From Bacteroidales bacterium (GTDB taxonomy: Bacteria; Bacteroidota; Bacteroidia; Bacteroidales; WCHB1-69): 47,519 nt of DNA. This document shows positions 11,174 through 42,341 of this stretch, in pieces (the stretch's first letter is position 1; every line of letters begins with the position of its first letter). The notes under the pieces were generated by a model. The model saw nothing but the letters and a program-made list of their open reading frames with translations, searched no databases and was not told where the DNA came from. The translations under genes and the position numbers were made by a program. Where the stretch lies: NCBI GenBank assembly GCA_017527945.1, contig JAFXPL010000077.1, forward strand, positions 1 to 47,519, in the 5' to 3' direction.

Positions 11174-11234
11174 CAAGGTTCAAGGTTCAAGGTTCAAAGT
11201 TCAAAGTTCAAAGTTTAAGGTTTAAGGTTTAAGG
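11174..11234 (-). repeat. CTTGAAC/CTTAAAC heptad array at the 3' end of the four-helix-bundle gene
   Basis: In gene sense the array runs CTTAAAC, CTTAAAC, TTTGAAC (x3), CTTGAAC (x3) with a strict 7-bp period. It begins within the last codons of the gene and supplies its TAA stop. The same heptads, inverted, precede the start codon at 11618-11648. Confidence 0.88.
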
Positions 11235-11617
11235 AATTTGGAGCCGTAATAGCAACTTGACTTGATACTTTTAATAAAAGAAGAAATCGCTTTGCACAGA
11301 TTTATACAATCGAAATAAAGTCGTTTGGCCGTATCATTATCGATGTAACCTACATCTGATGCACGAATTATCTGACTTCGAACCTCGCCACAAGATCCCT
11401 TTGCTATATAAAGGAAATTAACAAATTCCCTATTCCCTTCTCGTTCAAAACCTTCTGCGATGTTGTCCATAACAGACCCTGCCGAAGCACGAATTTGCTG
11501 AACAAAACGGAAGTCCTTACAAAATTCACCATCCTTTGTAACAATATAAATCTCTTTGCAAAGATTTCTTGCCAACTGGAAGATCACAAGGTCTTCAAAG
11601 GTCTTAGCCGTGCCCAT
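11222..11617 (-). CDS. Four-helix-bundle protein, 23S rRNA intervening-sequence type
   Basis: 131-residue helical protein of the TIGR02436/PF05635 family. Typical motifs: FEDLVIFQLARNLCKEIY, IRASAGSVMDNIAEGFER, REFVNFLYIAKGSCGEVRSQI. Members were first met inside 23S rRNA intervening sequences, but most are free-standing and of unknown role; relatives serve as RNA/RT-binding accessory proteins in diversity-generating retroelements (Avd). Here no rRNA and no reverse transcriptase is near. It stands between rpmE2 and ruvB. What is odd is its framing: 7-bp repeat arrays lie against the ATG and run through the stop, inverted with respect to each other, and its A/T-rich codon use differs from ruvB and lon. 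Both suggest it was acquired as a unit. Confidence 0.85.
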   Translation of the reverse strand: MGTAKTFEDLVIFQLARNLCKEIYIVTKDGEFCKDFRFVQQIRASAGSVMDNIAEGFEREGNREFVNFLYIAKGSCGEVRSQIIRASDVGYIDNDTAKRLYFDCINLCKAISSFIKSIKSSCYYGSKFLKP

Positions 11618-13726: not shown

Positions 13727-14748
13727 TATTTCATGTTTTCCTTGATGGCCTCGCGAATCTTGGCCTCGATCTCATCGGAGAGTTCGGGGTTGTCGTTGAG
13801 CAGCTGCTTCACGCTGTCGCGGCCCTGGGCGAGTTTGGAATCGCCGTAGGAGAACCACGAGCCGGACTTCTTTATAATATTGTATTCGACACCTAAATCG
13901 ACGATTTCACCGGCTTTGGAGATGCCCTCGCCGAACATGATGTCGAACTCGGCGGTGCGGAACGGAGGCGCGACCTTGTTCTTCACCACTTTGACCTTCA
14001 CGTGGTTACCGATGGCCGTGTCGCCGTCCTTAATCTGGGTCTGGCGACGGATGTCGAGACGGACGGAAGCGTAGAACTTCAGGGCGTTGCCGCCGGTGGT
14101 CGTCTCGGGATTGCCGAACATGATGCCGATCTTCTCACGCAGTTGGTTGATGAAGATGCAGCAGCAGCCGGTCTTGTTGATGGTTGCGGTCAATTTGCGC
14201 AGGGCCTGCGACATCAGGCGCGCCTGCAAACCGACCTTCGACTCGCCCATGTCGCCTTCAATCTCGCTTTTCGGGGTGAGGGCGGCCACAGAGTCGATGA
14301 CGATGATGTCGATGGCGCCGGAGCGGATCAGGTTGTCGGCGATTTCAAGCGCCTGCTCGCCGTTATCGGGTTGGGAGATGAGTAATTCGGCGGTGTTCAC
14401 GCCCAGCTTCTCCGCGTAGAAGCGGTCGAAAGCGTGCTCCGCATCGATGAAGGCCGCGATGCCGCCTTGCTTCTGCGCCTCCGCAATGGCATGGATGGCC
14501 AACGTGGTCTTACCAGAGGACTCGGGACCGTAAATCTCCACGATTCTGCCCTTCGGGAAACCGCCCACGCCCAATGCCGTGTCCAAACCAATGGAACCGG
14601 TGGAGATGACGTCCATCGGCTCGATGTGCGTCTCGCCCATGCGCATGATGGAGCCTTTTCCGAAGGTCTTCTCAAGTTTTTCGAGTGTGGAATTGAGCAC
14701 TTTCAGTTTCTCAGCATTCACATTGTTTTTCATTTCTTCTTTTTCCAT
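13726..14748 (-). CDS. recA: Recombinase RecA
   Basis: Strand-exchange protein and co-protease of the SOS response, 340 residues. Walker [10 protein letters not shown] (74-82), the MAW-type motif, the L1/L2 region with [37 protein letters not shown] and the C-terminal domain are all intact. ATG at 14748; a second ATG at 14733 is possible. It heads the recA-TPR-ruvB operon. Its promoter (14776-14806) matches the Bacteroidetes consensus perfectly and lies in a 120-bp segment repeated beyond the adjacent restriction-modification gene. Confidence 0.97.
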
Positions 14749-14774
14749 TTCTTACATGATTAATTAAACTGGGG

Positions 14775-14894
14775 GCAAAGGTACGCTTTTTTTCAATCGA
14801 TCCAAAGGCAATTTCAAGAAAATATTTACCTGGAAACTAACTGTTTACCACAATTTTAAGTATTATTTGTTAAGACAAAATGACGGATTTCGGA
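14775..14894. repeat. 120-bp direct repeat, copy next to recA
   Basis: Identical to 17270-17389 in 119 of 120 positions (A at 14800 versus T at 17295), in the same orientation. It contains the recA promoter and, further upstream, an imperfect inverted repeat TGGAAAC-taact-GTTTACCA at 14831-14850. The two copies bracket the restriction-modification gene. Confidence 0.95.
14776..14806 (-). promoter_or_regulatory. recA promoter
   Basis: Minus strand: TTTG (14803-14806), 19 bp, TACCTTTG (14776-14783), an exact fit to TTTG-N19-21-TAnnTTTG. The start codon is 28 bp beyond the -7 box. The same promoter recurs at 17271-17301. Confidence 0.85.
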
Positions 14895-14985
14895 AGAATC
14901 TAAATTTGCACCCAAAATCTTCGAAATGCCTTTTTATGTTTTTGCTTTCTTTTATGTCAACAACAGAAAAGAAAGGTTTTCATAT

Positions 14986-17244
14986 TCAGAAAAGCCTTGA
15001 ATAGGGTAAAGATCGGATATAACGCTCCATGTAATCAAAGTCCGGAGTTCCGTCAGCTGTTGTCGGCAGGAGTATCTCAGATTTTTCCATAAGATCTTTT
15101 GTCCATTTGTTATTGAAAGCATACTTCACGCTTTCGTTCTTGATGACTGTGGCGATGAAGATGGCAATGTGCGGAGTGAGTTGAAATTTTGGGGTCAGCA
15201 CGTTCACATCGTCAGTGGCCCAATAGGGCTCGTCCTGATAGAAAGCCTCGCCGATGGAACCATTGTAACAAACCGAGATGGTGCCTCCTTGACTGAGCTG
15301 ATTGTCATTGCCGATATGGTTGGTGATGCCATTGTTGAAAGCTGATGCACCTACAAAATTGATGCGTCCGTCATGTTGGTCAGCTTTAGTCAGACGACTG
15401 CCTTTGGCAATGGTAAAGAGGCCGTCCTTGCCTCCTAATCGGAAACTTTTCCATTTTTCAGTGTCAAGTGGCAACTCGTTTCCCTCAACAGGTGCGAAAA
15501 AAATTTCATATTCCGTGGCCAAAGGGGCACCATACAACAGATGGTCTCGTGCACTTTCAAAAAAATCCTGTTCGTCTATCTTTTGTTTGAACAATGCGTA
15601 GGCCAATGTGCGCTTCATGAAATCGGCACGTGTGAGCACCGGCACCTTAATATCCTCTTGGTAGCTTAAATGCTCGTCAGGACTTATCCATTTAATGGTG
15701 TCGCTTCCTGTTTGCTTGCGGACAATGTCAACCCACTGTTGCTCTATGGTCTCCCAACGGCCACGAATATCGTGCCGCCCTTGATTCTTGATCGTCTCCA
15801 AACCATCGTCAGCCATATAACAGGTGAAAATTTCATGCTTGCTTTGGGGGGTGCCAACCGTAAACATGAAAATACTTGTGGTAACACCTGAAAAAATCTC
15901 TTTTGGCAACTTGATAATCTTTGTCAGCCTATGAGCCTGCAACCATCGGCGCACACGTCCGCGGGATTTTTCAAGTTTGTTGTCTGGCAGAATGAAAGCA
16001 CACACAGTTCCATGAGGCACATTGTAAAGCACATTTTCCACAATATCCAGACATCCATATTTATTTTCAAACGGCGGATTCATCAATACCCGCGTGATAG
16101 GTTTGTCGCGCATCCACCATCCTGCATCTGCCGAACGGCTGTCCAAATGTTCCAAATTGGTCTTTCCATCCTTGTGAATCAGCATATTGGCACAAGCAAG
16201 CGCGAATATCTCCCTGTCGAACTCAATGCCGTAAAGCTGAGTTTGAGCAATCTCACGTGCCTCTTGGGTACGTACCCCACCAGCCTCCTTAATCATGTTA
16301 CACATGGCTTTTACAAGGAAAGCGCCACTGCCGCAAGCCGCATCAAGTACGGTATCCTGCTTTGTGGTATCCGTAATCTGATACATGAAAGAGGTGATGT
16401 GGTCGGGTGTAAACACTTGCCCAGACTCCGATTTGGCTTTATATCGGTTGAACTCATTAAAGAATATGGCCATCACATCCTCGCCGTTCCAAAAATCGGA
16501 GTTGATATTGTCGGAGATTTTGGAGATGTCTTCGATAAACTGGTTGATGGCATCCTGCTTGCACTGTGTGTTCAATTTGATTTCCGAGAAAACGTCTATC
16601 AATATTTGGAGTTTTTGGTTTTTGGCCAAATCCTCCGACAAAGAGCTTTCGAGCGTTTCACGAATAGCGGTAGTGAACAATCTGAAAGACATACCTTTCG
16701 CCAACGCAGCCCCATAACGTTTGGCCACCAGTGCACATGCCGTGAATATCATTCGATGGTAAAGGTTCTTGATGAGAAAATCGAAATGCAGGGTGTCGTT
16801 GATGCTATGCGTCAGCGAATAGATGAGCATCTTGTTGATACGGTTGGAGGAGAACAGACCTAAATAGTGTTCTTTATCCATCAAATCGCATTCCCCAACA
16901 ACCAACTCGTTATCTTTATAAACCTCCAATTCATACCCATTATAGAGCAGCCCGACAACATGTTTATACCGAGTGTGTACAATGCGGATGTTTTTCCGAA
17001 GCTCTTCACGTTCCTTGTCGCCAATCTTGACGTTACTGCCTTTTACTTCAAGGACAAGGGCGGGGTAATGCGTCTCATTAGGCAAATACCATCCATCCGG
17101 ACGGTCTTTCACTCCCCGGAAACCCAACTGATTGAATGAAGTGAGCTGACCGACACCTGCCTGGGCGGATTCCGTTTCTTCCAAATGGAGTTTCGTCCGA
17201 GCCAAATCGCGAACCTGATCTTCCGTGTAAATGGTGCTTGCCAT
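14986..17244 (-). CDS. Single-chain restriction-modification enzyme (type IIG/type I-like R-M-S fusion)
   Basis: 752 residues with three parts. The N-terminus has a PD-(D/E)xK nuclease signature: PD at 49-50 and LEVK at 65-68 (E66, K68). The middle is an N6-adenine methyltransferase with motif I DAACGSGAF (D301) and motif IV NPPF (~388), preceded by the HsdM-like GQVFTPDHITSFM. The C-terminal ~180 residues (from WKSFRLG) resemble an HsdS target-recognition domain. One chain could thus cut, methylate and recognise DNA, as in type IIG enzymes. It has no separate hsdR/hsdS. The recognition site cannot be read from sequence. It is flanked by 120-bp direct repeats and driven by a duplicated recA promoter, both signs of recent insertion. 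It is somewhat more A/T-rich than its neighbours. Confidence 0.88.
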   Translation of the reverse strand: MASTIYTEDQVRDLARTKLHLEETESAQAGVGQLTSFNQLGFRGVKDRPDGWYLPNETHYPALVLEVKGSNVKIGDKEREELRKNIRIVHTRYKHVVGLLYNGYELEVYKDNELVVGECDLMDKEHYLGLFSSNRINKMLIYSLTHSINDTLHFDFLIKNLYHRMIFTACALVAKRYGAALAKGMSFRLFTTAIRETLESSLSEDLAKNQKLQILIDVFSEIKLNTQCKQDAINQFIEDISKISDNINSDFWNGEDVMAIFFNEFNRYKAKSESGQVFTPDHITSFMYQITDTTKQDTVLDAACGSGAFLVKAMCNMIKEAGGVRTQEAREIAQTQLYGIEFDREIFALACANMLIHKDGKTNLEHLDSRSADAGWWMRDKPITRVLMNPPFENKYGCLDIVENVLYNVPHGTVCAFILPDNKLEKSRGRVRRWLQAHRLTKIIKLPKEIFSGVTTSIFMFTVGTPQSKHEIFTCYMADDGLETIKNQGRHDIRGRWETIEQQWVDIVRKQTGSDTIKWISPDEHLSYQEDIKVPVLTRADFMKRTLAYALFKQKIDEQDFFESARDHLLYGAPLATEYEIFFAPVEGNELPLDTEKWKSFRLGGKDGLFTIAKGSRLTKADQHDGRINFVGASAFNNGITNHIGNDNQLSQGGTISVCYNGSIGEAFYQDEPYWATDDVNVLTPKFQLTPHIAIFIATVIKNESVKYAFNNKWTKDLMEKSEILLPTTADGTPDFDYMERYIRSLPYSRLF

Positions 17245-17269
17245 ACTTGAATATGTCTTTTTTTACACC

Positions 17270-17389
17270 GCAAAGGTACGCTTTTTTTCAATCGTTCCAA
17301 AGGCAATTTCAAGAAAATATTTACCTGGAAACTAACTGTTTACCACAATTTTAAGTATTATTTGTTAAGACAAAATGACGGATTTCGGA
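17270..17389. repeat. 120-bp direct repeat, copy upstream of the R-M gene
   Basis: Second copy of the repeat at 14775-14894, one mismatch. Beyond 17389 the two flanks diverge at once, giving sharp ends. The distance between copies makes the repeated-plus-inserted unit 2,495 bp. Confidence 0.95.
17271..17301 (-). promoter_or_regulatory. Duplicated recA-type promoter driving the R-M gene
   Basis: Minus strand: TTTG (17298-17301), 19 bp, TACCTTTG (17271-17278), base-for-base the recA promoter. The R-M ATG is 27 bp beyond the -7 box, nearly the same leader length as for recA. Confidence 0.85.
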
Positions 17390-17432
17390 GGAAAGGGGCT
17401 TGAATCCAAAATCTATGATGTGGGGATTTTTT

Positions 17433-17440
17433 TATTTTTG
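17433..17440 (+). promoter_or_regulatory. -7 element for the TlpA-type thioredoxin gene
   Basis: TATTTTTG, 26 bp before the ATG at 17467 and outside the 120-bp repeat. A well-spaced TTTG is lacking. Confidence 0.4.
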
Positions 17441-17466
17441 CAGTTTACTTCACAAGTTCAATCAAG

Positions 17467-18615
17467 ATGGTTATGAGAACACTTCATAAAACAATTTGCG
17501 TTTCCCTTGTCCTACTGACGCTCTCCTTCCCCATCATGGCGCAAAGCCCCAACTTCACCGTAACGGGGACAGTCAAGGACATGGACGGTGTCCTCGTCAC
17601 CCTGGCGGCGGAACAGCAGTTGGTGGATTCCGCAGCGGTGGCCGGCAACAGTTTCCTGCTTCAAGGGCACGCCGACTCCGCCATGATGGTCACCCTCTAC
17701 TCCAATGACTACAACCTATTTGCCGAGCTGTTGGTGATGCCGGGCAGCCAAATGACGATTGACATGCCCGCCGGCGAGGTGAAAGGGAACAAGCCCACCG
17801 AACAGCTCAACCAGCTTATGCAGGGGAACAGGGCGCTGATGAAAAAGCGGACCGAGACCGCCTACCAGATGATGGCCGCGGGCGAAGGACCGGCCTTCGA
17901 CTCCCTGCAGGCCATCTACTACAGCTGCAACGAACGCCGGAAGCAGCTGGTGGACTCCATCGGATGGTGCTACTACGAGGAGAACCTCGACAATCCCGCT
18001 GCCGCCCGCATCCTCTTTGAAATCGCCACCACGGTGACGGAGGACACCTACTTAGACAGAGGGGATGAGCCGACCCCTGCCATCATCCGCCTCTTCTCCC
18101 TCTATGATTCCGCACCAACTACAGTGAAAGGATTCCCGCCGCTGAACCGCTACATGACCAAACTCCAGGCACAAATGCTGGTGACGCCGGGCAACCGGTT
18201 CCGCGACTTCGAGGCCATCGACTACGCCACAGGGATGAAAACGACCCTTGGGGAGAAAATCGCAGGCCATGTCGCCATCGTGGACTTCTGGGCGTCGTGG
18301 TGCGGACCGTGCCGCAAGGAAATCCTCGAAACGCTGATCCCACTGCACAAACAATACGCTGACAGCGGATTGGTGGTGATCGGCATTGACATTTGGGACA
18401 AGATGGAAGACCACGACAAGGCCGTCAAGGAGCTGGGCATCAGCTACCCGCAATTAGTAGACACCCTTCACGACAACTCCTCGCTGCTGTATGGCATCCG
18501 CGGCGTGCCCTACGTGGTCGTCATCGACAGCAACGGGGTCATCCTCGGCACATTCCGCGGCGAGAAGCTGGTGGAAGAGGTGGAAAAAGCACTGGGGACA
18601 AAAAAAGAGGACTAA
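17467..18615 (+). CDS. TlpA-family thioredoxin-like protein with DUF4369-type N-terminus
   Basis: 382-residue exported protein. A signal peptide (ends IMAQS) is followed by a DUF4369-like beta domain (FTVTGTVKDMDGVLVTL), a helical linker and a C-terminal thioredoxin fold with WCGPC at 278-282 and the cis-proline in RGVPYVV. Such proteins act in the periplasm as thiol-disulfide reductants, for example in cytochrome c maturation or rescue of oxidised surface proteins. Bacteroidota carry many paralogues, so the partner cannot be named. It is read away from the recA/R-M region. A run of seven A, GC, seven T just after the stop may end the transcript. Confidence 0.88.
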   Translation: MVMRTLHKTICVSLVLLTLSFPIMAQSPNFTVTGTVKDMDGVLVTLAAEQQLVDSAAVAGNSFLLQGHADSAMMVTLYSNDYNLFAELLVMPGSQMTIDMPAGEVKGNKPTEQLNQLMQGNRALMKKRTETAYQMMAAGEGPAFDSLQAIYYSCNERRKQLVDSIGWCYYEENLDNPAAARILFEIATTVTEDTYLDRGDEPTPAIIRLFSLYDSAPTTVKGFPPLNRYMTKLQAQMLVTPGNRFRDFEAIDYATGMKTTLGEKIAGHVAIVDFWASWCGPCRKEILETLIPLHKQYADSGLVVIGIDIWDKMEDHDKAVKELGISYPQLVDTLHDNSSLLYGIRGVPYVVVIDSNGVILGTFRGEKLVEEVEKALGTKKED

Positions 18616-22817: not shown

Positions 22818-22890
22818 AGAAAAATCAGGTTGTTTACTATACTTTCTGCACAATAATTGTTGGCTATTATCATTGGTTTTACCACCATTA

Positions 22891-22956
22891 GCCAACAGCC
22901 AACAGCCAACAGCTAACAGCTAACAGCTAACAGCCAACAGCCAACAGCTAACAGCC
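22891..22956 (-). repeat. GTTAGCT/GTTGGCT heptad array at the end of elbB
   Basis: About nine exact 7-bp units, AACAGCC or AACAGCT on the plus strand. On the minus strand the first unit forms the last codons and TAG stop of elbB. The same repeat family occurs at the nadK stop (42282-42341). Confidence 0.9.
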
Positions 22957-23601
22957 CATAGCCACTATCATCTCTTTGATGAGGTTGTCTGCACAATCAG
23001 CGATGTCGCTGATGCGGGCAGGCAGCATGTAGCAGGGCGTGGTGAAGATCTTGTTGACCGTGTCGCAGCAAACTTGCTTCTGGACGGTGATCTCGTGTTT
23101 GGTGCCAAAGGATTCCACGTTGCGGACCGTACCGGGGTCGCTACCCACGGTGACAGTAACATCGCCCAGCACCCTGGCAATCATCACGGGGGCGATGCAA
23201 AGAGCACCCACCGGCTTTCCGGCATCATGGAAAGCGCGTATCACTTTCGCCACATCCTCGCGCACCGAGCAGTTCGCCCCTTCGTAGGCGTAGGTGAAGA
23301 GATTCTTGGCGGAACCGTTGCCGCCAGGGAACACCACTGCATCAAAGTCCGCCACACGGCATTCCTCGATGGGCTTCACGTTGCCGCGGGCGATGCGGGC
23401 CGCCTCTATCAGCATGTTGCGACGATCCTCCATCGGCTGGCCCGTCACATGATTCACCACATGGTACTGCCAATCATCAGGGGCAAAAATCTGGTATTCG
23501 CCGCCATTCCGGTCGATGGCCAAAAGGGTCATCACCGACTCATGGATCTCGCTGCCGTCCAATGTGCCGCAGCCGCACAATATCACTGCAAATTTCTTCA
23601 T
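22948..23601 (-). CDS. elbB: ElbB-type glyoxalase (DJ-1/PfpI superfamily)
   Basis: 217 residues, the usual ElbB length. FAVILCGCGTLDGSEIHESV and FPGGNGSAKNLFTYA are family hallmarks; the nucleophile cysteine is C135 in GALCIAPVM. ElbB was linked to early isoprenoid synthesis and has weak glyoxalase activity toward glyoxal; its physiological substrate is unsettled. The last codons and stop are formed by a 7-bp tandem array, so array slippage would change the C-terminal few residues. A -7 box lies upstream at 23624-23631. Confidence 0.92.
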   Translation of the reverse strand: MKKFAVILCGCGTLDGSEIHESVMTLLAIDRNGGEYQIFAPDDWQYHVVNHVTGQPMEDRRNMLIEAARIARGNVKPIEECRVADFDAVVFPGGNGSAKNLFTYAYEGANCSVREDVAKVIRAFHDAGKPVGALCIAPVMIARVLGDVTVTVGSDPGTVRNVESFGTKHEITVQKQVCCDTVNKIFTTPCYMLPARISDIADCADNLIKEMIVAMGC

Positions 23602-27375: not shown

Positions 27376-27408
27376 GTTTACGGTTTACGGTTTACAGTTT
27401 ACGGTTTA
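27376..27408 (-). repeat. AAACCGT heptad array before the GT117 gene
   Basis: In gene sense: AAACCGT, AAACTGT, AAACCGT, AAACCGT, AAACTAAT, ATG. It occupies most of the 44 bp between the pheS stop and the GT117 start. Confidence 0.85.
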
Positions 27409-42281: not shown

Positions 42282-42341
42282 CTAACAGCCAACAGCTAAC
42301 AGCTAACAGCTAACAGCCAACAGCCAACAGCCAACAGCTAA
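42282..42341 (-). repeat. GTTGGCT/GTTAGCT heptad array at the nadK stop
   Basis: Eight exact 7-bp units. The first unit in gene sense contains the nadK TAG (42338-42340). Same family as the array at the end of elbB, 19 kb away. Confidence 0.9.

Follow-up and report, generated by a model that had tools for sequence, protein, structure and literature searches.

The stretch of DNA analysed here (47,519 nucleotides of a Bacteroidales contig, called the window below) carries on its minus strand a gene for a restriction-modification (R-M) enzyme, recA, a TPR gene and ruvB, in that order, with a tlpA-like gene diverging from them on the other side of the R-M gene (Table 1). The earlier note described the locus as one R-M gene enclosed by two direct repeats, and indeed the long ORF between the copies encodes N6_Mtase and Methylase_S domains. 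No transposase or integrase domain was found in the 16 window proteins scanned (6142-29441), as that note had also stated, and of the four inverted-repeat pairs listed for 14000-18200, none is placed at both ends of the insert. A gene for a 23S_rRNA_IVP-family protein (11222-11617) stands alone between rpmE (L31) and ruvB.

Table 1. Features at the recA locus of the window.
Feature	Position	Strand	Basis or remark
recA, 340 aa	13726..14748	-	Pfam RecA, 6.6e-140; NCBIfam TIGR02012 above cut-off
Block U, copy 1	14775..14898	-	upstream region of recA at its original location beside that gene; single-copy homologues in relatives
Promoter box TACCTTTGC of recA, -7 type	14775..14783	-	sequence
Imperfect dyad in block U	14856..14873		sequence and alignment with relatives
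3' flank of R-M gene, 87 bp	14899..14985	-	residual similarity to native intergenic sequence outside block U
Fused, predicted type IIG-like R-M gene, 752 aa	14986..17244	-	Pfam, PADLOC, alignment, predicted model
Leader of R-M gene, 25 bp	17245..17269	-	resembles leader of same gene in G039
Block U, copy 2	17270..17393	-	immediately upstream of R-M gene
Promoter box TACCTTTGC before R-M gene, -7 type	17270..17278	-	block U stops exactly at box; sequence
Native intergenic stretch, block U to tlpA-like gene	17394..17466		aligned with L117 and L122
tlpA-like thioredoxin-fold gene	17467..18615	+	Pfam Redoxin, AhpC-TSA, DUF4369; divergent from recA

The repeat, which we call block U, is 124 bp long and occurs twice as a direct repeat with a spacing of 2495 bp; the copies are identical at 122/124 positions and mismatched at two. 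The 119/120 repeat reported previously is the same block, trimmed, its end coordinate of 17389 falling 4 bp short of the edge of block U. The ends had been called sharp, and the edges are abrupt: alignment of the copies gives 13/24 identical positions over the 26 bp just within the edges of the block and 35/58 over the 60 bp beyond them. Outside the recA-side copy, however, the sequence partly resembles its counterpart, and to that extent the description has to be qualified. Among the direct repeats of at least 32 nt listed for the 47.5-kb window (seed 14), there is no other non-tandem one, and the remaining families are short-unit tandem arrays. Four arrays of 7-bp units (11174-11234, 22890-22964, 27376-27408 and 42282-42341; units CAAGGTT, AGCCAAC, GTTTACG and AACAGCC) were noted in the window, and similar units lie upstream of recA in one relative, L116.

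Both copies of block U stop at the TACCTTTGC box and have the sequence TTTG 19 nt upstream of it, a box which we take to be the -7 box type of the host phylum (consensus TAnnTTTG). TAnnTTTGC is present upstream of recA in 18/18 aligned relatives. The R-M gene is therefore preceded by an intact copy of the recA promoter region, with only the 25-bp leader before its start codon. The dyad within block U is a degenerate form of TTAAC-TAT-N2-ATA-GTTAA, which occupies the equivalent spot in the alignment of closer relatives. The LexA/SOS operators of Bacteroidetes are given as GGA-N5-TCC or CTAA-N5-TTAG (PMC8565304); judged by eye, the block U dyad matches neither. It also recurs at other loci, and we make no claim that this dyad puts the R-M gene under SOS control. 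The 18-bp dyad TTWACWATNNATAGTWAA was found in 6/7 genus genomes searched (e.g., at L165-L190) and the pattern read backwards in 0/7; at several of the sites a TAnnTTTGC-like box follows about 50-110 bp further on. The TTWACWATNNATAGTWAA dyad is a possible operator of a new kind.

The R-M protein combines an N6_Mtase domain with a Methylase_S domain (type I-style specificity) by Pfam. The N6-adenine methylase motif NPPF is at residues 389-392, and the target-recognition domain spans approximately residues 596-744. In an alignment of 29 sequences, P49-D50, E66 and K68 are invariant, as are NPP 389-391, and F392 is nearly so. In the predicted model (mean pLDDT 87, pTM 0.74), P49-D50, E66 and K68 sit on or beside strands 51-55 and 62-67 of an N-terminal alpha/beta domain; by our own reading of the motif, D50, E66 and K68 would thus mark a PD-(D/E)XK-like nuclease of presumed fold. 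Nuclease, methylase and target recognition would then be found in one chain, as in the type IIG enzymes, judging by motifs and model. The best PADLOC match is REase_MTase_IIG, covering residues 138-508 only. Fold matches are to type I methylase subunits and to the type IIG/IIB enzymes BpuSI, DrdV and BsaXI; these are partial (TM-score by query 0.26-0.40 among the 50 matches listed), and it is chiefly the methylase that resembles solved enzymes in sequence. Within these limits, the product looks like a type IIG-like single-chain R-M enzyme, with the arrangement of a PD-(D/E)XK-like N-terminus, an N6-adenine methylase and a target-recognition domain that is seen in BpuSI, DrdV and BsaXI. Relatives of the protein are common (5122 proteins at E<=0.001 of 7998 scored), and they occur at 12 loci of viral contigs, with 47-58% identity, and on plasmids (four records at E<=1e-30, each below 60% identity). 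No flanking direct repeats were found at 15 other loci of the family, two of which have less than 70 bp on one side, so the block U repeat does not seem to be the R-M family's own end.

To place block U, we turned to 40 genomes of the genus of L001 (uncultured Bacteroidales), of which 19 have a RecA 97-99% identical to that of the window. A search at E<=1e-3, in which scoring took in, for some genomes, the best 21 of a first-look list of up to 31 candidates, gave a match in 15/40. In 13 the match lies directly upstream of recA, with 24 to 124 bp matched; in the other two there are only 28-bp pieces, away from recA. A separate blastn found block U in L118 (genome G040) as well, outside this match list. 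The reading that block U is not recA's own, which came from a blastn match of only 24 bp in L001, is overruled by congeners that show 67-87% identity over at least 99 bp. The duplicated sequence is thus the recA upstream region, as first proposed, with a homologous block before recA in relatives. Two full copies were found in 0/40 genus genomes. Moreover, wherever the full block was found in the 40-genome sample, it was a single copy and stood upstream of recA, which answers the concern raised earlier that it might be a common genomic repeat. The same distribution makes it extremely improbable that block U is a mobile or common promoter-bearing element that landed twice, a notion that could draw on the shorter dyad like that of U at other loci and on G034, where the recA-side block is accompanied by a 40-bp piece elsewhere that resembles the outer part of U.

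Beyond the outer edge of block U, the aligned sequence differs between species groups, and the recA upstream neighbors in relatives include genes for adenylosuccinate synthetase, LptF/G and fucosidase. This suggests, on the strength of the alignments, that the upstream side of recA is a recurrent rearrangement breakpoint, at which the neighboring gene varies among congeners while the block is kept. The upstream side of recA looks less like a defence hot spot, which was also considered: among nine upstream proteins from nine relative loci, Pfam gives a match at E<=1e-10 for six, in each case to an ordinary kind of protein, and none for the other three.

The relatives also supply both empty and occupied versions of the site. 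We compared 33 recA loci (32 plus L001, with 445 bp to 12 kb of upstream DNA each), from 33 of the 38 genomes in which recA was matched. Of these loci, 32 have no R-M gene of this kind at recA. Two, L117 and L122 (genomes G013 and G034), are the empty sites that the earlier note had predicted, with the tlpA-like gene, one block U and recA; in L121, tlpA lies 3 kb away. At species level, then, it is not the case that all relatives carry the R-M gene and both repeats, the outcome that the note had named as contrary to its proposal. The one occupied locus, L119 in genome G039, has an R-M protein 97% identical in amino acids over residues 37-746 and the same R-M/recA junction as the window, with a single block U. 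Upstream of its R-M gene the sequence is different, and tlpA is matched over only 48 residues. By eye, some 400 bp of palindromic REP-like sequence lies between this tlpA remnant and the R-M gene in G039, flanked on either side by a similar stretch, ATAGAGCCTTTA.... Compared with the window, the G039 R-M frame seems to be interrupted close to its start (tblastn gave two overlapping pieces in different frames). A wider search of 104 family genomes and 393 sampled order genomes (cut-offs 1e-60 and 1e-150) gave other R-M matches at 34%, 61% and 55% identity, and the 123-genome family of the 61% match contains that same match only.

These loci bear directly on whether the contig is correctly assembled. 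The four closest records (L001-L004) are MAG or uncultured-isolate contigs, and a repeat of 124 bp is, as a matter of general knowledge, close to usual k-mer and read lengths, so that a short-read metagenome assembly might have repeated the 124 bp wrongly or joined the contigs of two strains. But the block U copies differ at two positions, the R-M/recA junction is seen again in G039, and the tlpA/U junction is the native one in L117 and L122; there is thus independent support for every junction except that of block U with the R-M start. We consider an artefact very unlikely.

By composition, the R-M gene looks foreign: its GC3 is 0.525, vs 0.788 for recA, 0.796 for ruvB, 0.781 for tlpA and 0.699 for the TPR gene. 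Identity at fourfold sites between the window and G039 is 0.89 for the R-M gene (n=287) vs 0.64 for recA (152), 0.60 for the TPR gene (96) and 0.57 for ruvB (65, part of the gene), with a Fisher p of 4e-15 for the R-M gene against its neighbors, calculated from rounded values. From this contrast, the lineages of the window and G039 had the R-M gene in common more recently than they did the neighboring genes. On these comparisons, there is good support for acquisition of the R-M gene and for duplication of the recA upstream region at this locus.

The route by which the duplication arose can be approached through the 3' flank of the R-M gene. Against five native-type flanks, three beside tlpA (the window, L117 and L122) and two beside the fucosidase gene (L123 and L125), this flank gave z of 2.5-4.7 for the window and 2.9-5.0 for L119, vs -0.6 to 2.1 against nine other relatives except L118 (1.7 and 4.65, the latter for the G039 flank), the native-type and other-type groups having been chosen after the alignment was seen. 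Because the 3' flank resembles the native one, the R-M gene probably had an intergenic region of recA type beside it already when it moved. A switch that we propose at the outer edge of block U has weak numerical support: the window and G039 are identical at 79/86 positions in the 3' flank vs 104/124 in block U (p = 0.10). As to age, the copies agree at 122/124 vs 107/124 with the closest of the 14 block U copies in relatives, so the copies were probably duplicated, or last homogenised, after the window's lineage had split from those species. Some species, however, conserve block U strongly (L119, L116 and L127 agree pairwise at 120/124), and its high identity is therefore a rough clock. Where the window copies disagree, the base of the outer, tlpA-joined copy is that of 9/14 relatives at both positions, and the base of the recA-side copy is that of 4/14 at one and 2/14 at the other.

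A duplication produced in one step by the insertion itself is less secure on this sequence evidence, because G039 is occupied with one block and the R-M 3' flank resembles native tlpA/recA intergenic sequence. It might still be defended if the insertion occurred in a common ancestor and duplicated the tlpA/recA intergenic region in full (about 180-200 bp), G039 later losing or scrambling its outer copy and gene conversion homogenising 124 bp in the window. The 3' flanks of window and G039, both resembling native intergenic sequence, and the R-M/recA junction common to the two would fit this history. So would the weak resemblance between block U and the promoter region of the G039 R-M gene, with a local score of 49 against its own U and up to 53 against those of other relatives, where 3/132 AT-rich promoter controls scored at least 49. 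The fourfold identity of the R-M gene, on the other hand, indicates more than plain inheritance at this site from the time of the species split, and gene conversion would be required to halt at both edges of block U. We regard this one-step history as unlikely.

The account that we favor, and hold to be probable though well short of certain, is that a horizontally acquired type IIG-like R-M gene entered between recA and the divergent tlpA-like gene by a two-step route that left block U there twice. In the first step, the R-M gene would have become linked to recA in one of the species of the genus, beside a tlpA/recA intergenic region, which is the state of G039. Second, the recA-linked R-M segment would have entered the lineage of the window and left the resident block U on both sides, the duplication being made or refreshed in that lineage. 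How the R-M segment and block U were joined is something we infer. The occupied site is known from one other genome only, G039, and there without the second block. In its present form, the outer block U, joined to tlpA, would drive transcription of the R-M gene, while recA would still rely on the inner copy. The R-M leader of the window does not contain the promoter sequence found in G039. The R-M gene may thus use the promoter copy and be controlled in common with recA. RecA-dependent gain and loss occurs between long direct repeats. By analogy, the near-identical 124-bp copies would permit loop-out of the insert with recA left intact, and the R-M gene could be deleted by recombination between them. 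A further proposal, speculative and distinctly unlikely, is that block U is a docking site usable by RecA and that U plus the R-M gene forms an integrase-free unit: it would loop out as a circle, re-enter any related recA locus through ordinary recombination and spread between species at one address, always keeping the recA promoter and placing the R-M gene under recA control.

Insertion of R-M genes with a long target duplication was reportedly described by Nobusato et al. (2000, Gene) and by Furuta et al. (2010, NAR). The earlier note called this a described mode of R-M insertion, in agreement with three sources: R-M systems can insert with long, variable target duplications of the order of 100 bp (PMC3874152), the comparison of Helicobacter pylori 26695 and J99 provides a case of R-M insertion with target duplication (PMC1643837), and duplications of this order at R-M genes are also given in PMC3031569. 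As in such inserts, the window gene has direct repeats of the order of 100 bp and a single-copy empty site (at species level), with no mobile-element genes among the 16 window proteins scanned and no terminal repeats that would explain the move. It differs from those described in that the target that was duplicated lies upstream of recA, a housekeeping gene of DNA repair; the same R-M gene is at the same site in another species, G039, without a second copy; and the 3' flank in the window resembles an older, diverged copy of the neighboring sequence. A literature search gave no paper that combines R-M, the recA promoter, direct repeats and insertion. We place this case with the known R-M target duplications of the order of 100 bp, and what is unusual about it is the promoter target and the same-site relative without the duplication. 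In the literature cited above, transposase-free movement of R-M genes is still argued mainly from genome comparisons. Here, one genus presents a single site in occupied, occupied-without-duplication and empty versions, and these allow a concrete test of the origin of target duplications of about 100 bp and of a defence gene borrowing the promoter of a repair gene.
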